A stretch of 39,418 nucleotides of DNA, taken from the IMG/VR virus record IMGVR_UViG_3300025141_000266, positions 1 to 39,418 of that record; one strand, written 5' to 3'. This DNA comes from a virus. Below are positions 2,602 through 33,002 of the stretch, one piece after another (the stretch's first letter is position 1; every line of letters starts with the position of its first letter). A program made the translations under genes and the position numbers. The notes under the pieces are model-generated. The model worked only from the letters and a program-made list of their open reading frames with translations, was not told the origin of the DNA and ran no database searches.

Positions 2602-2880
2602 ATGTGGTGGGTATTTTTTACTTTATTCTTTTTAATTAGTGTAGTATCATCTACATTATTATTTTTTTCATTGAAGAGGATAAATCAATATGAAGATTTA
2701 ATAACACAATTTCAGCAAATAATAATATTTGCTACAAACAAAATGAAACAAGTTGACACTCGTGGACATTATGAAGCGGATGATGAGACTGGATTTTTCT
2801 TTCAGCAATTAAAAGATATGCAATTGTTGTTAAATGATATATTCGAAGAGGAGACACAAGATGCCAAAAAAGAAAATTAA
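2602..2880 (+). CDS. Membrane-anchored helical protein
   Basis: A 92-residue protein with one N-terminal hydrophobic helix (about 3-24), followed by a soluble helical part rich in glutamine and acidic residues (NQYEDLITQFQQ onwards; DDETGFFFQQLKDM near 60-73). This looks like a single-pass anchor with a helical or coiled-coil cytoplasmic domain. AGGAGG at 2591-2596 is a strong ribosome site lying inside the previous gene's last codons. The 3' end overlaps the sigma gene by 20 nt, implying coupled translation. The function is unknown; its fixed place beside the sigma factor is the only clue. Confidence 0.7.
   Translation: MWWVFFTLFFLISVVSSTLLFFSLKRINQYEDLITQFQQIIIFATNKMKQVDTRGHYEADDETGFFFQQLKDMQLLLNDIFEEETQDAKKEN
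2848..2853 (+). promoter_or_regulatory. Ribosome binding site that sets the sigma-factor start
   Basis: GAGGAG lies 7 bases before ATG 2861. An in-frame ATG at 2834 would add nine residues but has no comparable site, so 2861 is taken as the start. Confidence 0.75.
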
Positions 2881-3604
2881 TGATGTTAAAAAAGAGATTA
2901 AAAAAATAGTTAAAAAGAAAAAACGAAAAGTTTATTTCGGACAAGAAGTTCAAGATGCTGTAGTTGATTATAATTCATCAAATAGTGACAGTGATAGAAA
3001 TGTAATTTATGGAACAAGAATTCATGCCGCATTTGATAAGTTGGCTGAAAACATAATTAATACTTTTAAATTTACTTATTTTGATATGCCCTTTGAAGAT
3101 GTTAAACATGAAGTTGTTGCTTTTATGGTAATGAATATGCACAAATATGACCACACTAAAGGTTCAAAAGCATTCAGTTATTTTTCAGTTGTTGCTAAAA
3201 ATTATTTAATATTACATAATAATAACAACTATAAAAAACTAAAAAGTCATAATGGTATAGAGGTTTTAGATAGGGAAAAAAATATTGGGAATAATATGGA
3301 CCAAGATTTAAAACAACTAACTCAAGAAATAGTTAACTATTTTGAAATTAATTTACCAACAATATTTAAGAAACAAAGAGATTTAAATGTTGCCTATTCA
3401 ATAATAGATTTAATGAAAAGAATGGATGAAATAGAAAATTTCAACAAAAAAGCTCTATATATCTTAATTAGAGAAATGACAGATGTCAATACTTCTCATA
3501 TAACTTCAGTAGTTAATGTATTAAAAAAACATTATAAAAAATTATCTAATGAATATCACAAAAATGGAACAATAACTCCAGTTAAAAGTGGTTCATTCTT
3601 CTAA
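2861..3604 (+). CDS. gp55: gp55-like late-transcription sigma factor
   Basis: A 247-residue protein. Residues about 52-125 look like sigma region 2: a helix around KLAENIINTF, then FEDVKHEVVAFMVMNMHKYD and the conserved-looking GSKAFSYFSVVAKNYLIL, the core-RNA-polymerase/-10-recognition helix pair. No full region 4 is evident, which fits the minimal gp55-type sigma of T4-like phages that redirects host RNA polymerase to late promoters. The first 25 residues are extremely lysine-rich, unlike T4 gp55, and the protein is longer than T4 gp55 (about 185 residues). It is the last gene before a terminator, and candidate target sites occur upstream of virion genes in this window. The main alternative is another small phage sigma of the sigma-70 family. 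Confidence 0.8.
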   Translation: MPKKKINDVKKEIKKIVKKKKRKVYFGQEVQDAVVDYNSSNSDSDRNVIYGTRIHAAFDKLAENIINTFKFTYFDMPFEDVKHEVVAFMVMNMHKYDHTKGSKAFSYFSVVAKNYLILHNNNNYKKLKSHNGIEVLDREKNIGNNMDQDLKQLTQEIVNYFEINLPTIFKKQRDLNVAYSIIDLMKRMDEIENFNKKALYILIREMTDVNTSHITSVVNVLKKHYKKLSNEYHKNGTITPVKSGSFF

Positions 3605-3610
3605 ATAATT

Positions 3611-3632
3611 AAACCCATTGAGAAATGGGTTT
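3611..3632 (+). terminator. Intrinsic terminator after the sigma gene
   Basis: A perfect 9-bp stem AAACCCATT/AATGGGTTT with a GAGA tetraloop runs straight into a T-rich tract (TTTATTTT). It begins 6 bases after the sigma stop and separates the accessory block from the baseplate block. Confidence 0.9.
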
Positions 3633-3661
3633 TTTATTTTAAACAATTTCTTACAAATTTT

Positions 3662-3677
3662 ATATTTATATATGAAT
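3662..3677 (+). promoter_or_regulatory. Candidate late promoter, baseplate block
   Basis: ATATTTATATATGAAT lies between the terminator and the first baseplate-block gene, 38 bases upstream of its ATG. The same 16 bases recur exactly at 32951-32966 before another virion block, and a near copy lies at 9021-9034. It is the only strong shared signal in these gaps. T4 late promoters use TATAAATA; here that octamer is seen only on the opposite strand, so the assignment rests on recurrence and position. Confidence 0.5.
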
Positions 3678-3689
3678 AGATACATTCAT

Positions 3690-3694
3690 AGGAG
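3690..3694 (+). promoter_or_regulatory. Ribosome binding site for the first baseplate-block gene
   Basis: AGGAG is 5 bases before ATG 3700 and only 2 bases before the in-frame GTG at 3697. The spacing favours the ATG. Confidence 0.7.
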
Positions 3695-3699
3695 ATGTG

Positions 3700-4095
3700 A
3701 TGTCTAATAATAATGAAATATTTGAAGGAAAAACTTTCCAAGATTTAACAAAAGATATCTATGAGAACACTACTAAGCGTAAAGTTCAAATAGATTTATT
3801 AATATCTGAAATACACGGATTTATAACAACCATAGATGATGTCGTTATGGTTGCTCCAATCATAAAAGAATATATGGATACAGCAGTTAAAAATGATGAA
3901 CATCTCGTTAAATTAGCTGGTGTGTTACAAAGAATTATAAGTAAGTCAAGTGGTGCTGATGATGAGAGTATGTTATTATCAGATGCTGAAAAGGAAGAGT
4001 TAATGGGAACACTTCAAGATACAGTTGATGATTTACAACGAGAAAGTGATAAACTTGAGGGTATAAAAAATAAAACAATAGATTTGGGAAATTAA
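3700..4095 (+). CDS. Helical baseplate-region protein of unknown function
   Basis: A 131-residue, mostly helical, charged protein (for example IIKEYMDTAVKNDEHLVKL around residues 55-75), with an acidic coiled-coil-like C-terminus from about 100. No catalytic motif and no signal peptide are visible. It is the first gene after the candidate late promoter, and its stop abuts the start of the spike gene (TAA then ATG), so it is expected to be a late gene linked to baseplate or hub assembly. A small hub or chaperone role would fit the position but is inference. A GTG three bases upstream is the only start alternative. Confidence 0.75.
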   Translation: MSNNNEIFEGKTFQDLTKDIYENTTKRKVQIDLLISEIHGFITTIDDVVMVAPIIKEYMDTAVKNDEHLVKLAGVLQRIISKSSGADDESMLLSDAEKEELMGTLQDTVDDLQRESDKLEGIKNKTIDLGN

Positions 4096-8991: not shown

Positions 8992-9020
8992 AAATAAAAT
9001 TGAAAAAGTAGAAAAAAATG

Positions 9021-9034
9021 ATATTTATTTATGA
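9021..9034 (+). promoter_or_regulatory. Candidate late promoter, fibre block (variant copy)
   Basis: ATATTTATTTATGA differs at one base from the first 14 bases of the motif at 3662 and 32951. It lies 69 bases before the ATG of the 2,008-codon gene, in one of the few real gaps of the virion region. Support is weaker than for the two exact copies. Confidence 0.4.
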
Positions 9035-9048
9035 GAAAAAATATCACA

Positions 9049-9064
9049 TATATTGTGCAATATA
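9049..9064 (+). promoter_or_regulatory. Dyad symmetry upstream of the giant fibre gene
   Basis: TATATTG and CAATATA form perfect 7-bp arms around a 2-base TG centre. The dyad lies between the candidate promoter and the GGAG ribosome site (9078-9081). It may be an operator or a small leader hairpin, but AT-rich DNA produces such dyads by chance. Confidence 0.35.
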
Positions 9065-9089
9065 GTATAAAGTCAATGGAGAATATCAG

Positions 9090-12000
9090 ATGGCTGATTT
9101 AAGTAATAAGGTAATATCGAGTAATTTTCAAAAGTTGTTACAAGTTTCAGAAAGTAACGCTGTAGCCGACGCTACTGGTTCTGTTACTGCTTTATCTTTA
9201 GATAAGGCAAATTCAAGAGTTGGTGTTGGTACAAATACACCAACAAAAACTTTAGATGTAGTGGGGACAATAAATATAAGTGGTTCGGAATATTTTGCCA
9301 CTTCAGGTTCACTAGCTGATGAAATTGTTTCTATTGTATCAAGTGGTTCGATATTGCCAGCAACCCCTGCAGGAGATGAAGTTGGTACTTATGATTTGGG
9401 AAGTGCAACACATCCATGGCGTGATTTATACATTTATTCTGGGTCTTTAAAACTTGTCAGTGAACAAGGACATGTAGATTTAAATTGGGATGATGTTAAT
9501 GATTTAAGAGCTGGAAAATTACCAACAAGAAGAATAGATGGAACTAAGTTAACAGGTTATTTTGATGCTAGATATATAAGAGGATTACAAGTTGCAACTT
9601 CTTTAGCTGGAGTTACAACAGAAACAGTTGATACAGATACATTATTAGATTTTTCTATAGCTAATAGAATACAAATAAAAGCTGGTGGTGAAACATTCTT
9701 TGATGCCAGACAGGGTGAAAAATATTTATACATAGGTGTTGATACGGGATCTGATTATCATACAACTATTAAATCAATTACTTCGGCTAGTAGAGACCTT
9801 TATGTTGGAGGAAATTTAAAAGTTGATGGTAATACAGTAATTGATGGAAATTTAACATTTGGAAATGCTGATACGGATACCATAGGATTTAATGCAGATA
9901 TAAATACAAATTTAACACCAGATTCAAGTTCTACATATGATTTAGGTTCCAAAGAAAAAATTTGGAGTAACATTTTTGTTAATACTATAAGTGCAAGTGG
10001 TGATTTATATTTAGATGGTAAAGATATTTTTACTAATCAAACAAGAAGAATAACACTTGATGATACTACTGTATTTTATGGTGATATAAGTTCAAGTGGT
10101 ATTATTACTGCAAAAACAGGTTCATTTGACCACATAACAACAGACACTACTAATATTACAGTTACAAATTATTCTGCTTCCAAATTTACTGGTTCTATTT
10201 TAGCAAGTGGAAGTACAGAAGGATACCCAGCAACAATAGGTGCAATAGGTGATATAAGTGCAAGTGGAAGAATATATATTGCAGGAAAAGATGTTCCAAA
10301 AATGAATAGTATGAATACTTTTGGAATTGCATATGCTAGTGATGGTGTAAATCAACTCTCATCAGGAACTGGGCTTAAATGGAATTATAGCACAACTCCA
10401 GATGTATTAGAAGTAGTAGGTGACATAAGTGCAAGTGGTACAATTTATACAACTGGAAACATAAGTGCAAGTGGTGATTTATTTGTAGAAGGAAACATAA
10501 CCTCAAGTGGAAACATAAGTGGAAGTAAAGTATATGCTTCTGAAAATTTACAAGCAGTCGATCATTTAATTCTTGGCCTAGGTGGTGGTGGTGACAGACA
10601 AGGTAGTAATGTTGCTTATATTGGAGATACCGATAACGATTGGGCACCATTTGTTAAATTCTTTGGTGGTATAGCAGCAGGAGAACAAGGATTATTATTC
10701 TATACAAGTTCTGCCACTAATCAGGCAGCTTCTATTTTATGGAGGTCTGGTGTTCAAGCTGGTGGTAATGGTGTAACAGCAGATCATGCAATAGAAATGA
10801 GAGTTGGTAATCCTCGTGCTAATGGTGATGCTGATAAAACACCTAATTTCCAATTAGATTATCAAAAATTAAAATTAAGTGGAAGTGGAGATACACAATT
10901 AGATGTAGATGGTAATATAACTGCATCAGCAGTAACAGTTAGTGGTGATATTCATTCTATGGGTGTCATAAGTTCAAGTACTGGTATTTCTTCGAGTGGA
11001 AATATAACTTTAACTGCTGAATCAAGTCCCCAATTAAAAATAACTGATACATCAAATGATTTTGCACTTGTAATAAGACAAGATAATATGGATGCAGTTA
11101 TAGAATTTAATGATAATGCATCACAAGATTTAGTATTTAAATCAAATGCTACCAACAACCATCTGGTTCTTGATAGTGGAACTGGAAATACAGGAATTGG
11201 TGGAACATCTACACCTTCTAAAACTTTAACTGTTCAAGGTGATATAAGTGCAAGTGGTGATATGAATGTAGCTGGCAATATAACAGCTTCAAATTACACA
11301 GGAACAATTAGTACAGCAGCACAACCAAATATAACATCTCTTGGAACATTAAGTTCATTATTAGTTTCAGGTAATATAAGTGGTTCAACAACTGGAACTG
11401 GTTCATTTGGTAGAGTTGAGGCTGATAGTTTCAATATATCTTCAGTTGATAGTTTAGATATAACTGGAACAATAACTGCAGGAAAAGTTAGTGGTTCAGC
11501 AGTTTCAACTGGTTCATTCGGACATGGTTATATTATTAATAATCTTGGTATCGGAACAATAAGTCCTGGAAAAGAACTTGAAGTTGTTGGTGACATAAGT
11601 GCAAGTGGAATAATAACTGCAGAACATTTTCATTCAACCGATGATGCTAAAATTACAGACGACTTAGAAGTACAGGGAAATTATAGTGGTTCTTCAGCTT
11701 CAACATTTACCATTGGTGGAAATGCTACAATTGGTGGTAATATTGATTTAGAAGGTGATATTGATATTGATGGAATATCAAATTTAGACAACACAGATAT
11801 AGATGGAACATTAAATGTTGATGGAAATGTAACTCTTGGAAATGAAGTCAAAGATACTCACACAATTACTGGAAAATCTTCATTTGTTGGTAATGTAACC
11901 GCAAGTGGAAATATAAGTTCAAGTGGAACAATTTATGCATCAGGTGGTGATTTTGGTTACGGAGACATTTCAAAAGTTGGCACAATAGATGTGGTTCATG

Positions 12001-15000
12001 TTAGAGGTTATAGTGATGAAGATACACATATTCGTTTTGGTGGTGATAAGCTTACATTTACTGTTGGTAGTAATGAAGCATTACTTACTTTATCACAAAG
12101 TAGTCACGATGAAGTAATCGTTGGTGATGGTGGTGATGTCGATTTTAATGTTAAAACAAATGGTGACAATAATACATTATTTGTTGAAGGTAGTTCAGAT
12201 AAAGTCGGTATTGGAACAAAGACTCCAGGAGAAAAATTAACCGTTCAAGGTAATATAAGTGCAAGTGGTCTTATAATGACAACTACTGGTATTTCTTCGA
12301 GTGGAAATATTGTAATCGATAATACCAAAGGATTAGCTTTCAGAAAAGCTGATGGTAGTACAGGTGATGTTAATCTAACAATAGATAATAATGATGTTTT
12401 ACGATTGGGTGATACAAATCTTTCACATGAAACTTTCTTATATGGTCAAAATCAATATTTAACAATATCAGGTAGTGGTATAGGAATAGGAAATAATGAA
12501 CCACAAAATACTCTTGATGTATTTGGTAATATAAACACCAGTGGTTCAAATGGTCACATAACCGCTAGTGGAAACATAAGTGCGAGTGGAACAATATATG
12601 CAGACAACTTCCAATCAACTGGTGGAGATGTTGCTGGGATATCATTTACAGATGATTTGAGTATAACGGGTAATGTAACGGCTAGTGGAAACATAAGTGC
12701 AAGTGGAGATGTTTCAGCTTCTAATTTTTTAGTACCAACGGATGGGTTAATAGCTAATTCTAATAATAGTGATCAAAACATAAAATTTGAATCAACATCA
12801 GAATTAGAAATAAATTCATCTACAATCACTCTAGATGCATCAACTATCAATATTGATTCTTCTACTGGAGATATAAAATTCAAAGATCAGGGTACTGAAC
12901 AATTCCGTTTAGATATGGATGGAACTGCTGGAGCTCAAGTATTACAAACAAAGGTAGCTGGTGATGATTTAATATTTAAAAGTCAAGGTGGTGACTCATT
13001 AATAACTTTAAAAAGTGAAGGCCAGACAGAAATACATGGAAACATAACTGCAAGTGGAAACATAAGTGCAAGTGGTAACATTTTTGGTGTTTCTGCTTCG
13101 TTTGATGGGGGTGTTGGTATTGGAAATTCATCTCCAACAAAACAATTAGTAGTAGAAGGTGACATAAGTGCAAGTGGTATATTATACATTAATGATACAT
13201 CTGCTAAAGTTGCAATAGGTGATAATGTAGCTGGTTCTTTAGATGGAATTGTTGTAACAGGTCAAATAAGTGCAAGTAATAATGTAACTATAAAAGCTAA
13301 TTCTGACCATTCAAATTTAATAATTGATGTAAATGAGACTAATAAAGATGGTAGAATTGAATTTAAGAGTAAAGGCCTTTCTAATTATTGGTTTATAAAC
13401 GATACATCAGCACAGAATTTCAGATTATATGATGATATTCATAATGAAAATATTTTAACTGTAACAAGTTCTAATGTAGGTATAGGAACTAATATTACAC
13501 CATCTAAAAAATTAACTGTAGAAGGTGACATAAGTGCAAGTGGTGGTATATATTTAAATACAAATGGTATATATCAACAAGATTTACTTTTCCCTGTAAA
13601 TGTTGCAAGAACAATTTCAATTGGAGACCCATCAGCTGGAAATGTAGATGGGGCAAAATTAACTATAGAAGCTGCAGACGCAAATACTGAAGCGGCTGGT
13701 AATCAAGATGGTGGTGATATTCAACTTAATCCAGGAGGAAAAGTTGGTTCAGGAACTGATGGAATGGTTAAAGTTGCTGGTAATATAAGTTCAAGTGGTG
13801 ATTTACATATTCAAGGAAACATTACTGCAAGTGCAGGAACTGGTTCATTCAAATTCGCTAGAGTTGATAGTGGAGAAATATATGCTAATAGTGATTTTGA
13901 TTTTAATCAAAAAGTAAGTGCTAGTAAAGAATTATATGTAGGTTCTGGAACTTCTGGTGATGCAGTTCTAACATTAGAATCTGACTTAGCTAATGATGAT
14001 GAAACTGCTAATCCTTATATTAAGTTTCAACAAGATGGTGGTCAAGTAGCTGCATTAATAGGAATGGTAGGAAATGCAGGTAAAAATCCACAAAATTCAG
14101 CTTTTGCTGGAAATCATCAATATTTTGGAGCTCCAACTAATTATTCTTCTCCTCCAAATGCACTTATGATAACAACTACTACAATGGGATCAGTTGCTAA
14201 TCAAAGTGGTAATAATGGTAACTTAATTTTAGGAACTAATAATACTGGTAGTGTATATATCAATTCTAGAACTCAAAATGTAACTATCGGTCAATCTAAT
14301 CTTTATGATTCTGCAGACCAAACAGGATCTGCTGGAACTATGTTAACTGTTAAAGGTGATTTAAGAGTTAGTGGTAGTGCATATGTTCTAGCTGATTCTT
14401 TATATGTTGGAGATACAGCTATAAATGAAACTTTAGTTCAAAATGTAAAAAGAGGATATTCATCTACAGCACTATCACCAGCTGGTTTAACTACTTTTGT
14501 CGGTAAGTTAAGTGCTAGTGGTGATATACACGCTGGTGGTCATATAAGTGCTAGTGGTGATTTAATTGTTCTTGGAAACGATATTAAAGGTTCAACTCTG
14601 GGACAGATTACAACACGACTAACACTTGGAGCAACAAACATATTTACTGGTAACATAAGTTCAAGTGGAGATATAATTACACAAGGTCACATAAATTCTG
14701 TAAATATAACTGGTAGTAATATAAGTGCAAGTGGTAAGATTTATTCAGATGATGAAATACATTTAAGAGATGGTGGTCAAGCTGGTGATACTCTTATAAA
14801 ACAATACGCTTCAGGGGATGATGGTATAATTGATGTTTACCAAAATAATTCAGTAGTAAATAGAATACACGGAAACGGAATATCATATTTTAATTCAAAT
14901 GCTATTGGTATTGGAACAACTACTCCTGATTCTGATTTAGAAATAAATCCGATAAGTTCTAGTAATAATACAACTGCTTCACTACATGTATCAGGTGCAT

Positions 15001-15116
15001 TTTCAAATATTAGATTAGAAAATCTACCAGTAACAAAACCATTAGTAACAGGTTCACTGTGGTTATCAGGAAGTGCAGGAGCGGATTCAAAATTCTTAGT
15101 AGTATTTACGGGTTAA
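9090..15116 (+). CDS. Giant repeat-rich tail fibre/adhesin (2,008 aa)
   Basis: A 2,008-residue protein built from beta-structure repeats. A module of the form (I/V)G.GT.TP.K.L.V.G(D/N)ISASG begins near residue 46 (RVGVGTNTPTKTLDV) and recurs throughout with variable inserts, often followed by short IIT, IYA or GDL strands. Such glycine/serine/asparagine-rich strand repeats are usual in trimeric phage fibres and side-tail proteins. The N-terminal 45 residues, lacking the repeat, probably attach to the baseplate. The C-terminus (about 1970-2008) is a short non-repeat region; no S74 intramolecular chaperone domain is visible. It follows gp6 directly, so it is likely a long or side tail fibre that contacts the host. 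Twelve DNA-identical repeat units make it prone to recombination. No sugar-binding or depolymerase motif is identified. Confidence 0.8.
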   Translation: MADLSNKVISSNFQKLLQVSESNAVADATGSVTALSLDKANSRVGVGTNTPTKTLDVVGTINISGSEYFATSGSLADEIVSIVSSGSILPATPAGDEVGTYDLGSATHPWRDLYIYSGSLKLVSEQGHVDLNWDDVNDLRAGKLPTRRIDGTKLTGYFDARYIRGLQVATSLAGVTTETVDTDTLLDFSIANRIQIKAGGETFFDARQGEKYLYIGVDTGSDYHTTIKSITSASRDLYVGGNLKVDGNTVIDGNLTFGNADTDTIGFNADINTNLTPDSSSTYDLGSKEKIWSNIFVNTISASGDLYLDGKDIFTNQTRRITLDDTTVFYGDISSSGIITAKTGSFDHITTDTTNITVTNYSASKFTGSILASGSTEGYPATIGAIGDISASGRIYIAGKDVPKMNSMNTFGIAYASDGVNQLSSGTGLKWNYSTTPDVLEVVGDISASGTIYTTGNISASGDLFVEGNITSSGNISGSKVYASENLQAVDHLILGLGGGGDRQGSNVAYIGDTDNDWAPFVKFFGGIAAGEQGLLFYTSSATNQAASILWRSGVQAGGNGVTADHAIEMRVGNPRANGDADKTPNFQLDYQKLKLSGSGDTQLDVDGNITASAVTVSGDIHSMGVISSSTGISSSGNITLTAESSPQLKITDTSNDFALVIRQDNMDAVIEFNDNASQDLVFKSNATNNHLVLDSGTGNTGIGGTSTPSKTLTVQGDISASGDMNVAGNITASNYTGTISTAAQPNITSLGTLSSLLVSGNISGSTTGTGSFGRVEADSFNISSVDSLDITGTITAGKVSGSAVSTGSFGHGYIINNLGIGTISPGKELEVVGDISASGIITAEHFHSTDDAKITDDLEVQGNYSGSSASTFTIGGNATIGGNIDLEGDIDIDGISNLDNTDIDGTLNVDGNVTLGNEVKDTHTITGKSSFVGNVTASGNISSSGTIYASGGDFGYGDISKVGTIDVVHVRGYSDEDTHIRFGGDKLTFTVGSNEALLTLSQSSHDEVIVGDGGDVDFNVKTNGDNNTLFVEGSSDKVGIGTKTPGEKLTVQGNISASGLIMTTTGISSSGNIVIDNTKGLAFRKADGSTGDVNLTIDNNDVLRLGDTNLSHETFLYGQNQYLTISGSGIGIGNNEPQNTLDVFGNINTSGSNGHITASGNISASGTIYADNFQSTGGDVAGISFTDDLSITGNVTASGNISASGDVSASNFLVPTDGLIANSNNSDQNIKFESTSELEINSSTITLDASTINIDSSTGDIKFKDQGTEQFRLDMDGTAGAQVLQTKVAGDDLIFKSQGGDSLITLKSEGQTEIHGNITASGNISASGNIFGVSASFDGGVGIGNSSPTKQLVVEGDISASGILYINDTSAKVAIGDNVAGSLDGIVVTGQISASNNVTIKANSDHSNLIIDVNETNKDGRIEFKSKGLSNYWFINDTSAQNFRLYDDIHNENILTVTSSNVGIGTNITPSKKLTVEGDISASGGIYLNTNGIYQQDLLFPVNVARTISIGDPSAGNVDGAKLTIEAADANTEAAGNQDGGDIQLNPGGKVGSGTDGMVKVAGNISSSGDLHIQGNITASAGTGSFKFARVDSGEIYANSDFDFNQKVSASKELYVGSGTSGDAVLTLESDLANDDETANPYIKFQQDGGQVAALIGMVGNAGKNPQNSAFAGNHQYFGAPTNYSSPPNALMITTTTMGSVANQSGNNGNLILGTNNTGSVYINSRTQNVTIGQSNLYDSADQTGSAGTMLTVKGDLRVSGSAYVLADSLYVGDTAINETLVQNVKRGYSSTALSPAGLTTFVGKLSASGDIHAGGHISASGDLIVLGNDIKGSTLGQITTRLTLGATNIFTGNISSSGDIITQGHINSVNITGSNISASGKIYSDDEIHLRDGGQAGDTLIKQYASGDDGIIDVYQNNSVVNRIHGNGISYFNSNAIGIGTTTPDSDLEINPISSSNNTTASLHVSGAFSNIRLENLPVTKPLVTGSLWLSGSAGADSKFLVVFTG
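9987..14734 (+). repeat. Dispersed 14-bp repeat encoding ISASG
   Basis: I count twelve exact copies of ATAAGTGCAAGTGG, starting at 9987, 10254, 10425, 10461, 11244, 11595, 12255, 12693, 13062, 13164, about 13530 and 14721. Variants occur as well (for example GTGCGAGTGG near 12577 and GTGCTAGTGG near 14549). All are in the same reading frame and encode ISASG. Several extend into longer identities with the preceding GGTGA or GGAAAC. Confidence 0.85.
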
Positions 15117-16358: not shown

Positions 16359-18077
16359 ATGGCTCAAAATAATCCAGATGTACAACCAGCACCTGCACCA
16401 TCCGTCGACCCAGGGTTAATTACTCTTGAAGGAGTTTTAGATAAAATAGCTGAAGCTTTAATTGTTAGTCCAATTGCTAATAAAAAATTAATCCAACAAA
16501 ACCAAAAAACATTCAGAGATGGTATACTTAAAATAGGTAGAACTTCTGGGGAAAATTTACAACTTTATCAAACAGATGTAGCAGCTAATGTAGAAGATAC
16601 AAAATCAACTAATAACGATGGTAACAATCCACAAACTTTACAAAACATTGTAGATAGTTTAGAGGGTTTTATGGATGAAGTTGTTATCGACATATTGACT
16701 TTTTCTGATAACACATTAGAAGCAATATTATTAACTAATCAAAATTTTACATGGGAGTTAACTCCCCTATTAACATCCATTCAATTAAATGACGACGGTT
16801 CAGAAACAATATTAAATCCTCTTAATGTTGGTCAATTTACATCTTTAGATTTAGTAAAAAATACTATTAATCCTGATTTAGCTGACGAATTTTTAAATAC
16901 AACAATTTATGAATTATTACCTGGTTTAATAACAAGACAATCTAGAATAGATGCTTTATTTCAAGAATTACAAAATTTAATCGGAGATGCTCCAGATTTT
17001 TTAATAGAAAATGGAATGGTGGGAGATAATTTTGACCCTGATGTATATAGTGAAATGCATGATATATCAACTGCACAAGATGGTGACCCTGAAATAGGTA
17101 TTGATGAAGAAGAGTCTTTTATAACAAGATTAAACCAAAATTCTAATGAAAATAATATAGGAAAAACAATACAAAGTTTAAGAGATACTTGTAATAGTTA
17201 TTTAGTTGATATTGATGAACAACCAAAAGAACCAATAGATGATAGGGAAGAATATGTAAATAAATCAGATGGTTATTTAAAATTTAGAAGTCTTAATCAA
17301 GGAATTATTATTAGAAATACAAATGATAATTTTATTCAAGGTTTAAATCCCGAACCTACAGTTAGAGAATATTTAACTACTGGTTTCACTGTTACAATGT
17401 GGGTTCGTTTTTTAGATGATATAAGTCAAGGAACATTATTTAATTTTGGTAATCCATTAAGAGAAGACAATCCATTTGGTTTTATGTTAGAAACATATGT
17501 TATAAATGGAGATGATGCAGTCGATCCAACAGCTGCACATGGGTCAGATCCTAATCGTGGTGATACATGGAGTGATATTTTTTCAGATGGAAATAAATTA
17601 AATATGTCTTGGGATGGTGGTGAAGAACCAAATGAAGGATTTTTTAGTAAATCAGGTGGTGAAAGATTTGTAAGATTAGTTATAAGAGAAGGAAATAATT
17701 TTTTGAGAGGATCTCATATAGGAGCTCCATGGTATAAAAGAGATGATAGAGTTCCACAATTTGGAAAGGATTATAATGAATATAGTGGTATGGTGGATTA
17801 TGACCATGAATTTGGACTTATGACAAATACCAGAATACCAGTTAATTATTCTGAATGGTATTTCATATGTGCAACATATAATCCTAATGTTATGGAAGAT
17901 GCATCTCATACAGGAACTACATATAATGATTATAATACAATACCTGATTTTTGGAGAAACAATGTGGATAAAGATTTAGGATTGTATGTTAATAATTCAA
18001 ACTATGGAGCAAAATGTAAGGTAGAAATAATATCACGAAGTGACTTACTAAGAGCTCGTGGTTTTAAGGTTGAATAA
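16359..18077 (+). CDS. Tail/baseplate protein with C-terminal LamG-like domain
   Basis: A 572-residue protein. Residues 1-260 are helical and acidic with a proline/alanine-rich start, a likely virion-attachment region. From about 297 to 572 the pattern fits a concanavalin/LamG-like lectin fold: DGYLKFRSLNQGIII, FTVTMWVRFLDD near 345, SQGTLFNFGNP, then WYFICATYNPN near 505 (the usual place of a conserved W-H/F-x-x-T strand). Glycan binding is plausible but not shown. AAAGGAAA precedes the ATG; the stop overlaps the next ATG (TAATG). It is likely part of the adhesion apparatus with its three large downstream neighbours. Confidence 0.65.
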   Translation: MAQNNPDVQPAPAPSVDPGLITLEGVLDKIAEALIVSPIANKKLIQQNQKTFRDGILKIGRTSGENLQLYQTDVAANVEDTKSTNNDGNNPQTLQNIVDSLEGFMDEVVIDILTFSDNTLEAILLTNQNFTWELTPLLTSIQLNDDGSETILNPLNVGQFTSLDLVKNTINPDLADEFLNTTIYELLPGLITRQSRIDALFQELQNLIGDAPDFLIENGMVGDNFDPDVYSEMHDISTAQDGDPEIGIDEEESFITRLNQNSNENNIGKTIQSLRDTCNSYLVDIDEQPKEPIDDREEYVNKSDGYLKFRSLNQGIIIRNTNDNFIQGLNPEPTVREYLTTGFTVTMWVRFLDDISQGTLFNFGNPLREDNPFGFMLETYVINGDDAVDPTAAHGSDPNRGDTWSDIFSDGNKLNMSWDGGEEPNEGFFSKSGGERFVRLVIREGNNFLRGSHIGAPWYKRDDRVPQFGKDYNEYSGMVDYDHEFGLMTNTRIPVNYSEWYFICATYNPNVMEDASHTGTTYNDYNTIPDFWRNNVDKDLGLYVNNSNYGAKCKVEIISRSDLLRARGFKVE

Positions 18078-21000
18078 TGAAAATTTATACAGAAGTCAAT
18101 TGGCGGTATGATGAAAAACTAAAGCGATATATAGAAACTTCATCTGATTTTCATAATTATGAAGGTCCATTAGCTTTAGCTGGGGATCAAGATGATTGGA
18201 TTTCTCAAGACCCAGCTAATTATGAATGTAAACAAATTGTTTATGGTTATGGTGAAATATGTTCAAGTGGTTGGTATTATCCATCTGAATGTGTGGACAC
18301 AGGAATTGTAACTGATGATGGTGACGGACAATGTCAAGGCCCATGGAATTATGGGCACCCTTGTTGGCTATCCATGAATAAAGATGAATCTTCGGTTCCT
18401 GAATCACCATATAGGTGGTATTTGTGGAATCCAGCTTGTTTTAAAGAATGTGACTCTAATAATGAAGGGGGTGCAGCTGATTGTTTTGTAGATTTTGATG
18501 TAGGTACAGGTGAAGACGAAGGTATGGAACCTGGTATGCGTTGTGTGGATTTAGGATACTCATTTACTTGTCCAGATGGACTTTGTACAAACGACCCATA
18601 TACAGATTGTGCAGAATGGTTAACTGGTTGTGCTGAACATGATGCTTGTAACTATGATTCAAATGTGATTATTAATGATAGAAGCTCATGTAATTATAAT
18701 GAAGGTCCTAATTGTGCTTGTACAGACCCAACTGCGTGTAATTATTTAGCAGGTGCATTAGTTGATGATGGTAGTTGTAATTATTTAGAAAATGGTGGTT
18801 CTGGTCCTAATTGTGGTTGTACAGATTCTGAAGCTATAAACTATTTAGCTGGTGCACTTGTAGATGATGGTACTTGTATTTTTGGAGGATGTTCTCGTAT
18901 AGAAGGTCCTAATGGAATGGTTTCTTGTAACTATGATGAAAGGGTAACGGGAGATGATGATGATGGAACCTGTCATGGTCGTCTTATAATTGATAATAAT
19001 CTAGGTGCATATTATGAATGGTCAGATGAATATGGTGATACATATTTTGACCCTTATCGTGCTAATTTTACTTATAGTAATGCTTCTTTAGTGAGTTGGG
19101 GAGCTATAGAGCAATTTTATACGGCTCCTAATGGAAAAACTTATGATTTTGTAGATGGTGATGATGGTGAAGGAATTATAACTTGTGAGTGTGATGAATT
19201 AGGGGATACTATATCATCTGATTATTATGTTGTTCAACCTGCTTGGCCAAATGATAAAGTATATCCAAGTACACCTTTAGGTTCTCAACATTATTTTGGA
19301 CCATGGGTATGTAAAAATGATGATAAACCGACACCACCTGAATTTTTATATCCTGATATACCTGAAGAAGATGCTGCTGAGACATCAAATCAAACTTATA
19401 TAGAATTACCATTGTATTGCAATTTTCCAAGTTCAATACATTCTTCTCTATTAGTAGATAAATATGTGACAGTTGAAACGGACAATAATTCTAAATTGAG
19501 TGAACTTAATTCTGCACTTATATCAAATATGGTTTCCGAATTCGACTTAAAATCAATGGGAAATAGTGGTGGTAGGTATTCAATAAAAGCATCTGAAAAT
19601 AGTATTGGAAATAAATTAATAGGCAACACTACATATCAAGCTTATGCTAAACTAATATTGGACGCACGATTGTTAACCGAAACAGACTCCAATTACTTTT
19701 CCTTTATATATACTTGTAATTATGACCATGCAGGAATTGGTGGTGGAGAAAATAAGACATATTCGGAAGAATATGAATCACCTATTGCTGGTAACTATAA
19801 TATTGGTTCAATGGATGCTACTAGAACCAGAGTACTAATAAATTATCCAGATATGGAAGCTTATGAATTTGGAATAACAGGTGTTACAATAACACCTACT
19901 TTAGATGGTAAATGGGACCCTGAACAAGGAATTGATTATTATACAAATCAAGATGAATCAGTTTGTGTAAAAATGCAAGCTAAAATAGACCATGAATTTG
20001 ATGATTATGGATATCCAGTAGGAGAATATTTTGATTTACCTGATGATTTTATAAATTGTGGAACTGATTTAATTAATGAAACAGATTTGTATTATTATAT
20101 GCAATTAGATCCTCCTGATTCTTGGATACAAGAGCCTCCTGCAGATGTTAATGGTTTTGCAGCTTTCTTTTATGATTATGGAAATACTGATTCAAATCCA
20201 GAAAATCACAAATTAAAATTATATGGTGATAAAGCTTTTTCAAGTAATGAGCAAACCTTTATTAGTAATAATTGTGGAAGTGGTAATACAGATTGTTACA
20301 TATATATTTATGACAAAACAACAGACCCTGACCTAAACGATAATTATGAAATAGAAATGCCAAATCTACCAGATGGTTATTATAAAGTTGCGGAAGCATC
20401 TGTAGGTAATACTTGGTTTATAGCGAAGATAGAAGTTCCAAATTATGTAAGTAATTGCCCAAGCTTGTTAGAAGAATGTGAAGGTAACTACCTAAAATGT
20501 CCTAATGAATTTAATTGTCAAAAATATGAAAACGGAGCTTCAAACTGGGCTGATTGGGGTTCAGGTATATATGCTTTCTTAGGTACAACAGGAGATTTTG
20601 AAGAATATCCAGATACTTATTTTCTTCCATTTAATGAAATAAAAGCTAAATGTACAGGTGATTTAGACGAATTAGTGGCTTATAGAAAACCTCCAGCAAC
20701 TCAGATTAGAAAAGATTTAGACACTATATATAATACAGGTATCAATGCATGTAAATCACTACATGGAAGTTTTAATTATCGTGAATTTTTAGAAATAGAT
20801 AATGATAAAAGGCCACTTTTAGGGGTATTTCATATTAAAGAAGAAAATCAAAATATGGGTAATATTCCTGTACAAATTGCAAAACAATATGGTAATTTTA
20901 ATCAAATTGATAAAGATAATCTTGTTGTAAATGGAACATTTGCTCAAGTTAAACTATTCAGTGCGATTGGAGATTTTACAGAAGATATGAGCCCAAGAAA

Positions 21001-24000
21001 TAGAGATGGATATTGGTATAATAATACAGGTACAACTGAATGCACATGGCTTGATTCAGGTAGTGTAGAAGTAACCACAGACATAACAACACAAATTCCA
21101 CATGCTAATTATCCAGACTGGCCATATTTTGCTCCAGAATTTAAAAGAAGAGGAGTATGTATTGATATTAATGATGATAATGCTATGTATGCTGACCAGT
21201 TCCCTGGTGGCTGGAATCCTGAAGCTGGGACAGATGTCCAATCAGATGGTAATGATTATGTAAAATCAAGTCCCGACCATAGCCATTGGGAGTACAATGC
21301 AGGTGGTGCAGCTAGTTGTGCTACAGTAGACACTGGTGAAGAAGGATCTTGGAGTTCTATGGGATGGATAGAAGATTTAGAATGGGGTCCATTACCATCA
21401 AAAACAAATTCAGAAACTGACCAAATGAATACAAGATGGGCTAAAGCATATATTCCACAACATTGGAGATATGTTGACCAATATGGATATACTGGTAGAC
21501 CAGGTGATTATTTTGGTCAACGCTGCGGACAACCTAACGCATTAGACGATTTTACAAATGACTGGAACCCCGATCAAACAGGATGGTGGACTGAATTCGA
21601 TCATCAAGAGAATGATCCTGAATTGCAATTGCAAAGAGCAAGATATATGTTAAATAATTATCTATCAGATAAACCTGCAGAGCAAAGAATTTTAACAACA
21701 GGTTTTTATGGATATGGTCCTGCTAATATAGCTCCATGGATAACTGATATTGGTGAATGGGCTATGACTATACAATCAAATGAGTGTTTATCTGAGGGCA
21801 GATGTTTACAAATGTCAGCATCATTGGGATATTGGGAAAATTTACCAGAGGAATATAGTGATTTTCCATTAGGTGCAACTAATGAACCTCATTGGACTCA
21901 ACTGATATATGGCCATAAAAAACAAATGTATCAACATTTAAACTTTACAACACCATTAACTTTTGATGAACATGATGGACCTATTAAAGGACAAAATGAC
22001 ATATATGGTATGCATACAAGCATGCAACTATCAGAAACACTTCGTTCTGATAGAATTAAAAGTTATCAAAATAATGGCACTTCATGGGATTCTATAATGC
22101 GTATTAGTTTTTGGATGAAAACAACAGCTGTAGAAGATACAAATAACTTTCCTATGGTTGAAGCCGCTGTGGTAAATCAACCTGCAATGCAAAGCTTAAT
22201 ATCTCCACCCAATAAAGGAGATGCATATGACCACCAAAGTAGACTGGATAGATATCTACCTACAAGAGCTCATCACAATTCTCTACCTGTTAGGATGCCT
22301 TTTTTTGACAATTCAAAAGATAAAGAGTTAAATATGTCTCGTGGTAGATTTAAAAATTCAGGTTTAGGTATATGGGAAAAAATGGAGTATACAATACATT
22401 ATAGTGATTATTCATATACTTCTCATAGCAATAAAGTTATGAAAAGATGGTTACAAATACAATGGGCATCTAATGGTATATTAAATCCAAGAGGAATGTT
22501 TGATGGTGTTGAAAATGATTTAGATAGAGCTGCTTATGGAAGAGTGTTAATTGATAATGTTTCTATTATAGAAGGTTATGACTTTAAAGTAGATACAGAT
22601 GTAAGGGGTAAATTTTTAAATAAAGATGGAAATATAAGATATGGTAAAGATGTTTTAACAAAATATTATGACCCAAAAATTCAACCTGAAGAATATAAAG
22701 ATTCAACTGCTCCACTAGAAGCTCAATTTTATTTTTATCCAAGATATAATACTAATGATTTATTTGATCATTCTGCAATACTTTATGATGAGTTTAAAGA
22801 AGGATTATTTTATTTATATGATGTTGATTGGGGTGATGGTTCTCCACCTGAATTTGTTCCACAACCAAAACAAATTGGTTATGATGTAACAGTTAATCAT
22901 ACATATGATGATGCAGGAATTTATGAAATAACTGGATATATGATAAGAAATACCGCAACTGATGGTACACTACATAATAAAAAATTTAGTGTTGTAATAA
23001 ATGTCAATGAAGGTAGAGGAGAAGATTTCACATTTCATGGTTCAGAAAATGGATTTAATTTTATACCATTTTCTAATACTCATCCTATAGTAGGTGGTAT
23101 TTCAGACGAAAGTATTTATTATAAAACAATAAAAAGAATGTCTGGTTTTATTGGAGATGATATACAAATGAAACCAACATTTGTTAGAAAAAGTGATCAA
23201 TTAAAATCAGAATTGGCTTTAATAAAAATGAAAAATCAGATAAGTGATACTCAAGATATGGATGATTTAGATTTACTACCAGAATTTTTAAAATCAAGAT
23301 ATTTTCCACAGGATTCAGGTTCATGGGATGACAGTAATAAAATATATAATGGGTTGTCACCAATAAGAGAAGAACTTGGAAAATCTACTGGAGATTCTGA
23401 TTATGCAAATGTAAGGTATTTTAATACTACAATGTCTATGTGGGAAATGTTAGGATTTGAAGATGAAGAAGCTGGTATACCAGATAATGAAAAATATTAT
23501 AAAAATATAATACCTGAAGATTATTCTATATTTAATAGAGAAGGTATTCCGGGTGGATATAATTGTAGACAACATACAACTCAAGTAGATTGCAATAGTA
23601 ATGGAAATATTTATGGGTGTCTTTGGGAAGAAGGTAATTATGAAGATGATACTATTAGTCAAGAAGGACCTTGTGAATGTAATAATAATGAACTTGGTTG
23701 TGACTCAAATCCTTTTATAGATACCTCTGTAAATCAAGATTGGATTGGAACAAATGAATATGGTAATACTTATTATTATCCTGTATTACCAAAATATAAT
23801 AAATATGGTGAATTTGAAGATTCATTGGATACAGGTTCTAAAATTCCTTTCCCAAAAGAAGCTCCAGTAACAAATGAAAAATATATAAATAAAAATTTAA
23901 AATTTAATATTAATTCTGAAACAATAGAAGATGAAACTAATGTGTTAAAAGATTTAAGTGGTAACCAAAATGTTGGTCATTATATAGGAGATTATAAACC

Positions 24001-24085
24001 TACATATGATGATGAAACACTTTATGTTAAAAAAACAAAAAATAAAGAAATAGTATTAAATCCTAAAAAAAATAGAGCATTTTAA
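18077..24085 (+). CDS. Giant multidomain adhesin with Cys-rich, CBM-like and PKD-like modules (2,002 aa)
   Basis: A 2,002-residue protein. Domains I can see, with rough residues: a tryptophan/cysteine-rich N-terminal region (1-280) with tandem ACNY...DDGSC-type repeats at about 184-268; a CBM4/9-like region from NGTF near 952 to LIDNVSI near 1490; a PKD-like domain 1576-1626 (VDWGDGSPPEF, then NHTYDDAGIYEITGYMI); a second cysteine cluster 1829-1880 (CRQHTTQVDC, GCLWEEG); and a C-terminal tail with DLSGNQNVGHYIGDYK shared with the next protein. There is no signal peptide. The composition suggests a glycan- or protein-binding tail adhesin rather than an enzyme. So many cysteines are unusual for a cytoplasmically assembled fibre. 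Both ends overlap neighbouring genes by one base. Confidence 0.7.
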   Translation: MKIYTEVNWRYDEKLKRYIETSSDFHNYEGPLALAGDQDDWISQDPANYECKQIVYGYGEICSSGWYYPSECVDTGIVTDDGDGQCQGPWNYGHPCWLSMNKDESSVPESPYRWYLWNPACFKECDSNNEGGAADCFVDFDVGTGEDEGMEPGMRCVDLGYSFTCPDGLCTNDPYTDCAEWLTGCAEHDACNYDSNVIINDRSSCNYNEGPNCACTDPTACNYLAGALVDDGSCNYLENGGSGPNCGCTDSEAINYLAGALVDDGTCIFGGCSRIEGPNGMVSCNYDERVTGDDDDGTCHGRLIIDNNLGAYYEWSDEYGDTYFDPYRANFTYSNASLVSWGAIEQFYTAPNGKTYDFVDGDDGEGIITCECDELGDTISSDYYVVQPAWPNDKVYPSTPLGSQHYFGPWVCKNDDKPTPPEFLYPDIPEEDAAETSNQTYIELPLYCNFPSSIHSSLLVDKYVTVETDNNSKLSELNSALISNMVSEFDLKSMGNSGGRYSIKASENSIGNKLIGNTTYQAYAKLILDARLLTETDSNYFSFIYTCNYDHAGIGGGENKTYSEEYESPIAGNYNIGSMDATRTRVLINYPDMEAYEFGITGVTITPTLDGKWDPEQGIDYYTNQDESVCVKMQAKIDHEFDDYGYPVGEYFDLPDDFINCGTDLINETDLYYYMQLDPPDSWIQEPPADVNGFAAFFYDYGNTDSNPENHKLKLYGDKAFSSNEQTFISNNCGSGNTDCYIYIYDKTTDPDLNDNYEIEMPNLPDGYYKVAEASVGNTWFIAKIEVPNYVSNCPSLLEECEGNYLKCPNEFNCQKYENGASNWADWGSGIYAFLGTTGDFEEYPDTYFLPFNEIKAKCTGDLDELVAYRKPPATQIRKDLDTIYNTGINACKSLHGSFNYREFLEIDNDKRPLLGVFHIKEENQNMGNIPVQIAKQYGNFNQIDKDNLVVNGTFAQVKLFSAIGDFTEDMSPRNRDGYWYNNTGTTECTWLDSGSVEVTTDITTQIPHANYPDWPYFAPEFKRRGVCIDINDDNAMYADQFPGGWNPEAGTDVQSDGNDYVKSSPDHSHWEYNAGGAASCATVDTGEEGSWSSMGWIEDLEWGPLPSKTNSETDQMNTRWAKAYIPQHWRYVDQYGYTGRPGDYFGQRCGQPNALDDFTNDWNPDQTGWWTEFDHQENDPELQLQRARYMLNNYLSDKPAEQRILTTGFYGYGPANIAPWITDIGEWAMTIQSNECLSEGRCLQMSASLGYWENLPEEYSDFPLGATNEPHWTQLIYGHKKQMYQHLNFTTPLTFDEHDGPIKGQNDIYGMHTSMQLSETLRSDRIKSYQNNGTSWDSIMRISFWMKTTAVEDTNNFPMVEAAVVNQPAMQSLISPPNKGDAYDHQSRLDRYLPTRAHHNSLPVRMPFFDNSKDKELNMSRGRFKNSGLGIWEKMEYTIHYSDYSYTSHSNKVMKRWLQIQWASNGILNPRGMFDGVENDLDRAAYGRVLIDNVSIIEGYDFKVDTDVRGKFLNKDGNIRYGKDVLTKYYDPKIQPEEYKDSTAPLEAQFYFYPRYNTNDLFDHSAILYDEFKEGLFYLYDVDWGDGSPPEFVPQPKQIGYDVTVNHTYDDAGIYEITGYMIRNTATDGTLHNKKFSVVINVNEGRGEDFTFHGSENGFNFIPFSNTHPIVGGISDESIYYKTIKRMSGFIGDDIQMKPTFVRKSDQLKSELALIKMKNQISDTQDMDDLDLLPEFLKSRYFPQDSGSWDDSNKIYNGLSPIREELGKSTGDSDYANVRYFNTTMSMWEMLGFEDEEAGIPDNEKYYKNIIPEDYSIFNREGIPGGYNCRQHTTQVDCNSNGNIYGCLWEEGNYEDDTISQEGPCECNNNELGCDSNPFIDTSVNQDWIGTNEYGNTYYYPVLPKYNKYGEFEDSLDTGSKIPFPKEAPVTNEKYINKNLKFNINSETIEDETNVLKDLSGNQNVGHYIGDYKPTYDDETLYVKKTKNKEIVLNPKKNRAF
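18627..18882 (+). repeat. Tandem cysteine-rich repeats within the adhesin
   Basis: Consecutive units have the pattern GC(A/T)(E/D).(D/E)A.NY....(I/L)..D...C: GCAEHDACNYDSNVI, ACTDPTACNYLAGALVDDGSC (18-21 residue unit) and GCTDSEAINYLAGALVDDGTC. The second and third are also close at DNA level (for example TTTAGC(A/T)GGTGCA), suggesting recent duplication. The third has lost one cysteine (isoleucine in its place). Confidence 0.75.
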
Positions 24086-26921: not shown

Positions 26922-29900
26922 ATGGCATATTATGATGATATATATTATTCTCCCGAAGAATTAGAATTAATACAAAGTAGTGAGGGGTATGTAAGTGGGT
27001 CTGTACCAAATTATCCTGGAGATTTTGTTAGATTAGTTATTTATAACAAAAATGATATGCAAACTAAAAAATGGGTTGACTCGGATGGTGATATTAGAGA
27101 TACTGTATATTATTCAACATTAAGTGAAGGCTCTTTTTATTTTCATGAACCTGGATTTGAATTACCAAAAAGAGGTGTCAATACCAGAATTTTACCTCCA
27201 AATGATTTTCCAATATATGAAAATAAAAATACTGAAACATCTAGTTTATATATAAAACCAAACGAAATATTATCAAGTTCATTACTGCCATCAGGGGATT
27301 ATGAAGTCTATTTTAATTTCCAAAATCAATTTATACCTATTAATCCAGCTTTTGATGATGGTGAATATGGCCAAATACCATTTCCACAATATTTTGAAGA
27401 ATTAGACATAAATAAAGATGGTGTTATTGACATATTAGATGTATCAGCTTGGAAAGAAGTTGGAAGACCTGATATAGCTGATTATATTGAGACTAATCTA
27501 TCTACTTTACAACCAACATATGGGCTTGTAGAAGCTAGACCTTTATCAGATTTTTTTTGGCCAACCATTGCTAATTTTATAACAAGAGAAGTATCACCTT
27601 CTCGTTTAGAAATAAGATTAAAATTATATTCGGAAGATAGAGATTTAGATACTAAAATAAAAAGAAATAGTAAATTTATACAACAATTAAAAGATGAATT
27701 AAATTTACCTAACACAAATAAATATGCTCATAAACATTCTTTATATTTTGGTGAAGGTATTAGTAGAAAAATTGCAAATTTTACATTTGATGATAGGTCA
27801 GATGGTAGAGAAGATCAATCTGTAATTATTAAACTACTTGATGCTATTCCAGGGAATATAAATATAAATTCTTCTGTTTCTTTAGAAAAACAACTTCATG
27901 TATCCAATCGTGAGGATATAAGATATACTATTCCATTACCATCTTTAAAAAGGGGTGTGGGTTTAACCCAAGATGATACAGAAAATTGGATTGAATCTAA
28001 TCAAGATACTAATAATTATGAAAATTATAATCAATTATCATCATCTTTATCTGATGCATCATTACAAAATTTAATATCAGGAAGTACATATGATTATCCA
28101 AATTTAAATAATGATTTTAAATCTTTTGAAAATCATACATTCTTTGGTTCAGCTAAAAGAAAATTAGAAAATTTTGAAGTAAAAGTTAAAAATATACAAG
28201 GACATTATAGTCGTATATCAAGTTCTCTAACTGCTGAGGGGATAGTTATAAGTAATCAATTTATAACTGGATCTGGAAATGAAAGAATTGAAACTGATAC
28301 TTCTGTTGTCACTGATAGAAAAGAATTATTTAATAAAATACAAGAAGAAATAAATTCATTTACACCTTATGAAAGATTTTTATATTATGATGGGCAAAGT
28401 GTATCCACAGCTTCTGCACCTGGTGTGGGTAAAAATTATGCTGATACTTATGCTATAAATCAACAAACAGCAAAAGAACTTGGTGAAGAGTCATATGTAG
28501 AAGAATATTCAGAATATTTTGACAATAAAGATGGATTACCACAAGTTTATAAAATTACACAATCATTTAATACTATTTCACCAACTAATATATTTGAACA
28601 TAAATATAGAGTTGAAAATAAACCATTTTTTAATTACAGTGGTTCAGTTTATTTATCTTTTTTAGTTAAAGGAGACTCAACATTTCATCAGGTTACTTCT
28701 AGTGGTACTGCAAGTCTTGATACGGTTTATCCAGATAATTTAGTACATGATTTTAATTACTCCAAATATAGTGGGATTGAAACTCCGAGAGATTCAATGT
28801 ACATAAATTTAATACAATCAGCTTCTTTAACAGGTAGTGAATATAGAAGATATATAACACAAGTTTCATCTTCATATTGGATACCAACTTTGGATGTGGG
28901 ATATCCTCCTGATGCTGCTGATGTAGATATTTTTACAGCTAATTCAAGTGAAGTTGAAGTATTAAGTGGAAGTGTAAAAACAACAAATGAATCATCCTCG
29001 GCTCAGGCAATTAAGGCAAGTGGATATTATCAACATTTAGCAACAATAGCTACAGGAAGTAGTGGAGTACCATTTACTGGTTCAATTATGCCAAGTGGAG
29101 ATATTTTTAATATAAAAGCTTCTAAACCATATATTACAAATCTACAAGGATATTGGAATGTAGATAATCAAACTTCAGGAAGCACAGCTGATGCAACAAT
29201 AATGAAAGATTTATCAGAAAATTCTAACACTGCTTCTATTACAGGTGTACCAAAAGTAGCAAATGGTGTTGAAAGATTTGGTAAAACCTATGGTCAAAGT
29301 ATTCAATTTTTAAGTGAAAGTTTCGATGAAGTAAGATTTGAAACGGATAATTTTAACTTTGGTAAAGAAGATGATTTCTCGTTAAGTATATGGGTTAAAA
29401 GATTTCATCCAAATACAGGTTCAGCTGATCCTACTACTAAATCGCGTCACGGAATATTCGGAAAAGGTCAATATGATAATTCTTATGGTATGGATTACAA
29501 TATTGGTAGTAATGTAATAAGAGCTGGTTTTAGAAAATCAGGCTCAGCTGACTTTTTAGGCAAAACAGCTTTTTCATATTCACCGGGTGATGACTTATTA
29601 AACTGGCACCATCTTGTTATGACATATGAAAGTGGTTCTACTACTGGTTTAAAACTTTATGATAATGGAGTAATGGTAAAATCACAAACTGTAGCTGGTT
29701 CTGATGGTTGGAGTATTACTGGTTCAGCTAACTTTACATCATCAACATCTGAATTAAGTGACCAAAGCAATATGTTAACAATGGGTGGTGATACAAATTT
29801 TGCAAGTGGTCAATTGGGATATTTTAATGGGTTTTTAGCTTATCCAAGAGTATATGATAGAACATTAGATTCAAATGATGTCAAAAAATTATATTTAACT

Positions 29901-32918: not shown

Positions 32919-32950
32919 ATTAAAAAATAACATATTTTTTTGATTTGTTA

Positions 32951-32966
32951 ATATTTATATATGAAT
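32951..32966 (+). promoter_or_regulatory. Candidate late promoter, downstream structural block
   Basis: ATATTTATATATGAAT is identical to the site at 3662-3677 and lies 52 bases before ATG 33003 in an 84-base gap. The gap also has an AGGAG ribosome site near 32989-32993. Confidence 0.5.
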
Positions 32967-33002
32967 TAGAATATTTATTATTTAAAGTAGGAGAAAATAA
33001 AA

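Follow-up and report, generated by a model that had tools for sequence, protein, structure and literature searches.

A TATTTAT box as the probable late-promoter element of a divergent T4-like phage lineage with its own gp55-like sigma factor

The word TATTTAT, together with an A/T-rich 3' extension, very probably serves as the -10-like box at the late promoters of a phage lineage that is T4-like but divergent, in which it would replace the T4 box TATAAATA and be read by the phage's own gp55-like sigma factor. What we observe, in a 39,418-nt viral contig (IMG/VR record IMGVR_UViG_3300025141_000266; hereafter the window, i.e., the whole stretch of DNA analyzed) and in its relatives, are the sites themselves, their conservation, their orientation, their gene context, and a distant homology between the encoded sigma and gp55.

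Results

Three sites in the largest gaps of the window

The 16-mer ATATTTATATATGAAT, which an initial annotation had proposed as a gp55-type promoter, is repeated exactly at 3662-3677 and 32951-32966, and the stretch at 9021-9034 (ATATTTATTTATGA) is one base off its first 14 letters, all as that annotation had it. It was also right that the three sites occupy the three largest gaps of the window, i.e., 8992-9089 (98 nt), 3605-3699 (95 nt) and 32919-33002 (84 nt); by the window's ORF table, the fourth-largest gap is 34 nt and gaps total 433 of the 39,418 nt. Scanning the window for the motif showed that TATTTATNTATGA occurs three times on the + strand and never on the - strand, against a mean of 0.11 (maximum 2) in 200 dinucleotide shuffles searched on both strands, and the 16-mer ATATTTATATATGAAT is absent from all 200 shuffles. 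With one mismatch allowed, the number of matches is ordinary (5 vs. 2.98 expected), so that two or three sites per window are suggestive, and the decision is left to relatives.

The first predicted late promoter (3663-3676, + strand; TATTTATATATGAA) consists of the core TATTTAT at 3663-3669 followed by ATATGAA, and its RNA would start near 3676 if the spacing given for T4, in the accessible text of PMC2988020, applies. It lies between the gene for the gp55-like late sigma (256 aa; 2834-3604, +) and a gene for a 131-aa protein (3700-4095, +), the first after this promoter, which is preceded by an SD-like GGAG at 3691 and whose product had no family match above the cut-off in the family scan. 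The same gap holds a terminator-like hairpin with a T run (3611-3636, +), placed between the sigma gene and the promoter, and an A/T-biased stretch (3646-3651, +) at -17 to -12 from the core. The hairpin was recognized by eye from the sequence, as were similar hairpins ahead of most sites inspected in relatives.

The second predicted promoter (9022-9035, +; TATTTATTTATGAG) stands ahead of a 2008-aa fibre-like ORF at 9090, with a putative RNA start near 9035; its extension, TTATGAG, is also found upstream of tail-tube genes in relatives. The third (32952-32965, +; TATTTATATATGAA), from which RNA would start near 32965, precedes the gene at 33003-33710 (+), whose 235-aa product starts MGYLDG and has homologues in immuto, Mel-JY01 and LR756508. 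Its counterparts are sites ahead of homologous genes in six other loci (one protein cluster). The gap with the 32951 site contains another TATTTAT (32972-32978, +), a possible weak extra site that is kept in one of the four homologous gaps compared.

Two further statements of the initial annotation fared less well. The weaker resemblance reported at 489 is real (TATATATGAA), but as a late-promoter site it was dropped and not counted, since TATTTAT is missing. The T4 box TATAAATA, said to be seen on the reverse strand only, in fact occurs seven times forward and eight times reverse in the window, or 15 times vs. 13.9 by chance; within gaps it is reverse-only because TATTTATA is its reverse complement.

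Among its other genes, the window encodes baseplate wedge proteins, a primase and a RuvC-like resolvase. The gene at 489-1655 specifies a DruA-like protein (Druantia defence system; PF14236, E 2.7e-21), directly upstream of which lie six GATC sites within 34 nt (448-481) in CTGATCTTGATC-like repeats. The product of 37252-38154 is ATP-grasp-like (in PHROGs, a ribosomal protein S6 glutaminyl transferase, E 7e-33). Three ORFs of about 2000 aa each (9090-15116, 18077-24085 and 26922-32918) are probably tail fibres, and the first contains many repeats of a ATAAGTGCAAGTGG-like DNA phrase.

Conservation of the box in relatives

The sigma-like ORF has at least 595 relatives, and in the best 80, which were found by protein rather than by motif, TATTTATATATGAA follows the sigma-like gene within 200 nt in 80 of the 80 kept (43 share a 60-mer with a motif-found locus). 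Across the 70 unique sequences, window included, columns -1 to +13 of this site are identical, and variation sets in from +17 onward. Just upstream, CAATTTCTTACAAATTT is also largely conserved, and a second site family (one cluster) shows a stretch partly similar to it.

The enrichment upstream of virion genes anticipated by the initial annotation is borne out ahead of tail-tube genes. From the best 80 of at least 600 relatives of a tail-tube query, itself taken from a motif-found contig (L179), removal of six upstream duplicates left 74 unique 110-nt upstreams. TATTTAT is present on the forward strand in 74 of 74 (shuffle mean 8.2; reverse, 5), as is its usual form ATATTTAT (74 of 74; shuffle mean 3.3; reverse, 0), while TATTTATNNNTGA occurs in 55 (shuffle mean 0.2) and TATTTATNTATGA in 39 (shuffle mean 0.06). 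As 24 of the 74 loci have a 60-mer in common with a motif-found locus, the other 50 were counted separately, and TATTTAT, ATATTTAT and TATTTATNNNTGA were found in 50, 50 and 37 of them. The T4 box TATAAATA stands forward in 1 of 74 (shuffle mean 2.7); enriched neither here nor in the window, it was rejected as the box of this lineage. Upstream of the primase gene, which served as the control set, the motif was found in 0 of 21 loci forward and in one reverse (21 of 30 loci used; L337, L324 and L334, the last two cut at the 5' end, and six duplicates or short upstreams were left out).

Because what follows TATTTAT varies before tail-tube genes (ATATGAA, TTATGAG, TAATGTA, TATTGAA and others), the core comprises seven bases, and ATATGAA trails it in the closest relatives of the window. 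Thus, the recurrence of the motif stands, but its original length of 16 bp does not.

Occurrence across gene families, contigs and named phages

We collected 224 unique sites from 204 IMG/VR loci, many of them on contigs that we take to be marine. By crude longest-ORF calls, 199 sites are outside called ORFs, 11 are in a same-strand ORF and 14 in an opposite-strand ORF. The proteins downstream form 34 clusters, of which 11 have at least three sites and 20 have one, and some of these single-site clusters may be chance matches of the 16-mer search. The gene families represented include tail sheath, tail tube and endolysin. Because loci L096-L211 were found, among the matches listed, through the 16-mer itself, the core columns of a family-weighted alignment are fixed by selection.

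On individual contigs, the sites keep to one strand. L179 has seven, all on the same strand. One precedes a 338-aa protein, after which comes the major head protein; the other six are ahead of a 195-aa protein, a head-tail adaptor, a 91-aa protein, the tail sheath, the tail tube and an 85-aa protein. Three large contigs found via the primase protein (G023, G024 and G026) together carry 18 copies of TATTTATATATGA, every one on the + (gene) strand and 16 outside ORFs. Matches to the looser [AT]TATTTATNNNTG number 26 forward (18 outside ORFs, 6 in same-strand ORFs, 2 in opposite-strand ORFs) and 1 reverse, and TATTTAT ranks 4th, 5th and 3rd among the non-coding 7-mers of G023, G026 and G024, respectively. 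In G024 (L348-L352), TTGTTACA-like words are also enriched on one non-coding strand (TGTTACA, 10 forward and 1 reverse).

Six records reached through the sigma protein contain 13 matches to TATTTATNTATGAA, on one strand per record, and the backward control gave none; TATTTATNTATGAA is missing from 4 of 25 records, namely G014 and G015 (protein-reached, about 48% identity), immuto and LR756508. TATTTAT follows the sigma gene in MAG contigs L353 and L355 and not in L354. L353 and L355, which carry relatives of the phage sigma, were binned as Nitrosopelagicus and Winogradskyella MAGs, and are probably phage contigs caught in these bins.

The named relatives of the window's sigma and 33003 protein are Flavobacterium phage immuto (host, Flavobacterium sp. 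LMO8), Microcystis phage Mel-JY01 and the 484-kb LR756508. TATTTAT is the top non-coding 7-mer in both immuto (32 vs. 1.3 expected; reverse, 12) and Mel-JY01 (24 vs. 2.6 expected; reverse, 11), and part of the reverse matches in immuto arise because TATTTATAAATA is self-complementary. Two immuto sites, one at 78841 right after the sigma gene and one at 90617 before the 33003 homologue (at 90644), have the same two placements as in the window. Mel-JY01 has the exact 14-mer TATTTATATATGAA between tail sheath and tail tube, and a second copy at 188323 in a stretch without annotated genes, inside a called ORF. In LR756508, whose sigma is 44-45% identical, TATTTAT shows no strand-biased excess (5 forward and 4 reverse, 1.1 expected, over 130 kb).

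Other words recur in these genomes. The non-coding DNA of LR756508 has strand-biased TACTTA (11 forward, 3 reverse) and TAACTTA (7 and 0), and that of immuto (MW353176) has a second repeat, TATATTTAGGTATCAATAATTAAAAC, whose 9-letter words occur 9-17 times and which is possibly another promoter with its leader.

Sequence flanking the core

Late promoters of the T4 type lack a conserved -35 element. In the tail-tube set, positions 12-17 nt upstream of the core are mostly T with some A, and the same A/T bias appears at -17 to -14 when families are weighted equally. All 31 immuto sites used have A or T at position -15 (31 of the 33 forward non-coding sites, with 6738 and 130550 left out). Because many of these upstream T runs resemble terminators of the preceding gene, a binding role for the A/T stretch is only putative. 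On the other side of the core, an A/T-rich segment is expected downstream of the T4 TATA box, according to the accessible text of PMC2988020. In immuto, G and C make up 46 of 372 bases at +7 to +18 vs. 96 of 372 at -12 to -1, so that the A/T-rich side is the right; the IMG/VR tail-tube set has no such difference in the same windows (173 of 876 vs. 151 of 876).

The gp55-like sigma

That a gp55-like sigma is encoded in the same window, as the initial annotation held, finds support in a profile comparison that started from the ORF at 2834 and included shuffled controls. With hhalign, an alignment of 12 relatives of this sigma matched seven gp55-type sequences (one of which, L226, is known from a tblastn match only) over residues 29-128 with a probability of 90.5 and a score of 47.3, compared with scores of at most 23.1 for 100 column-shuffled controls and at most 11.8 for reversed ones. 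A 13-member alignment gave a probability of 85.0, and T4 gp55 alone gave 3%. The late sigma family phrog_234 was matched by 5 of 12 members (best E 0.00068), and Sigma70_r2 by 2 of 13 (best E 0.0073), a level that unrelated Pfam families also reached (best E 0.0023). The window's own protein matched nothing in Pfam, a PDB sequence search returned nothing relevant, and gp55 profile A2 had no match at E 0.1 in 11 records, in a search that had no positive control. By profile comparison, the window's gene is a remote homologue of gp55, with homology in the sigma-2 region.

Aligned with T4 gp55, the sigma-2-like part (about residues 29-128) is collinear. In T4, as set out in the accessible text of PMC7892883, Y97 is the stacking partner of A-12 of the box, N13 and H95 are in contact with A-9, and T99 forms a bond with A-8. 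The profile alignment pairs Y97 with Y116, a residue common to 13 of 13 sequences, and T99 with S118 (Q in immuto, G in L355). N13, a contact of A-9, is paired with G36 (relatives have T, D or H), to within one position. H95 corresponds to F114; since the cyanophage gp55 in profile A2 also has F, this substitution was ruled out as the sole cause of specificity, which leaves the replacement of N13 (by G, T, D or H) as a candidate. With its A retained at -12 and -8 and T occupying -10 and -9, the motif fits these correspondences, though the fit falls short of proof.

The protein is longer than T4 gp55 (256 vs. 185 aa) and, where gp55 has only sigma-2 before its clamp-binding tail, contains an extra, conserved C-terminal helical domain (about residues 150-245, including IENFNKKALYILIREMTDVNTSHITSVVN). 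Its C terminus, where gp55 has a hydrophobic clamp-binding motif, reads SGSFF; the terminal FF is shared by 79 of 80 relatives and is not found in the Mel-JY01 or immuto proteins. A model of the whole sigma has a mean pLDDT of 66 and no structural match at E 0.001. The C-terminal domain alone was modeled as four helices (pLDDT 84, pTM 0.74) and had no Foldseek match at E 0.001, nor did it match gp55 or T4 gp33 meaningfully (a single gp33 sequence was compared). A VIA search gave a best Z of 3.8, and the top seven, tied with unrelated rows, included a TFIIB, a sigma H complex and three Pol II chains M, which we take to be TFIIB. Our reading of the sequence and model is that the domain may be a helix-turn-helix. 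The gp45 clamp (PF02916) was detected in 0 of 11 records, in a search in which no control matched either.

Discussion

Several features of these sites support the late-promoter role originally suggested for them: they occur in many gene families and phages, in one orientation, ahead of virion genes and not ahead of a gene for replication, and the equivalent gap of T4 contains TATAAATA. In T4, TATAAATA precedes genes 18, 19 and 20, including the gap ahead of the tail-tube gene, and does not precede gene 15. As with T4 late promoters, which are used by gp55 with gp33 and gp45, a short -10-like box occupies the gap that precedes virion genes (including those for tail sheath and tail tube) in phages that encode a gp55-like sigma. 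Aligned at the first T, the two boxes share A at -12 and -8 and differ in that the AA at -10/-9 of TATAAATA is TT in TATTTAT; the ATATGAA extension (in close relatives) likewise sets these promoters apart from those of T4, as may the A/T-biased stretch about 15 nt upstream. Late boxes described in silico for the T4 relatives KVP40, 44RR, S-PM2 and Aeh1, of which Aeh1 demonstrates that the box can vary, are near TATAAATA or changed only at -13/-12, in the accessible text of PMC2988020, whereas the change here is at -10/-9.

By analogy with T4, the box would lie at about -13 to -7, where a phage gp55-like sigma bound to the host RNA polymerase would read it on the non-template strand, and the RNA would begin some 13 bases downstream of the first T. 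Each box could thereby turn on one block of virion genes, often just past the terminator of the previous block. Promoter activity, the start position, recognition by this particular sigma and late timing are all predictions of this model.

Since reverse-complementing TATTTATA gives exactly TATAAATA, the sites could in principle be read leftward, as ordinary T4-type boxes on the opposite strand that would drive antisense RNA. TATAAATA is on the reverse strand in 41 of 74 tail-tube upstreams. We nevertheless consider leftward transcription very unlikely: the fuller form ATATTTAT is forward in 74 of these upstreams and reverse in none, T4 carries TATAAATA forward in the same gap, and genes on the large contigs are nearly all rightward (in G023, 111109 coding bases on the + strand vs. 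543 on the - strand) and would be left without a promoter. In immuto, though not in the IMG/VR tail-tube set, the A/T-rich side is moreover the right, as it is downstream of the T4 TATA box. That the motif is the -10 box of a host sigma factor, for which its A/T-rich, promoter-like composition would speak and which would require no phage factor, is extremely unlikely. Phages of a flavobacterium and of a cyanobacterium have the same core, an indication that its reader is encoded by the phage, and none of the 21 primase upstreams contains it. In addition, ATATTTATNNNTGAR is matched 2 to 5 times in each of four bacterial or archaeal bins (1.1-3.3 Mb), compared with 1 to 4 times for the backward control.

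The sites might also act in RNA instead of DNA, as a leader element, an operator or a leader peptide, given that the motif includes an ATG from which translation is often MNKYI-like and that a leader of about 70 nt lies ahead of the tail sheath gene. This we regard as barely credible: reading frames from the motif ATG run from 2 to 63 codons in 61 sequences of the sigma-gene site, a spread that rules out a leader peptide, and the distance from the start of the core to the SD goes from 16 upward, with a median of 29 over 166 sites. Transcription from TATTTAT by the phage's own sigma thus remains our preferred explanation.

The additional C-terminal domain raises a further possibility, to which we assign a rather low probability: that this is a naturally fused late sigma, in which a gp55-like sigma-2 is joined to a C-terminal helix-turn-helix that replaces gp33 or sigma region 4, and which reads a two-part promoter made up of TATTTAT and the A/T element about 15 nt upstream. 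In its accessible text, a review of T4 late transcription asks why no fused late sigma exists or was found (PMC2988020). The present sigma would be a candidate for this missing form.

In kind, the system is ordinary, in that T4-like phages have gp55 promoters, but the variant of the box is new, the sigma is a distant gp55 of greater length, and the system is spread widely. We found no paper describing a TATTTAT late-promoter system in the literature searched, which had most subscription papers outside its reach. The accessible text of PMC7892883 does contain TATTTATA, where it is the template-strand sequence of an oligo with a T4 promoter. A study of Far-T4 phages reports, in its accessible text, that the contigs yielded no detection of the T4 core genes for regulating transcription (PMC4360716).

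TATTTAT offers a simple way to tag late transcription units across a large, mostly uncultured group of phages, for which each protein search returned at least about 600 relatives. The comparison further suggests that a T4-like late box can change at -10/-9, and because a position contacted by T4 gp55 is among those altered, the sigma lends itself to a direct comparison with its promoter. Should the extra domain act as region 4 or as gp33, the question posed for T4 would have its answer.
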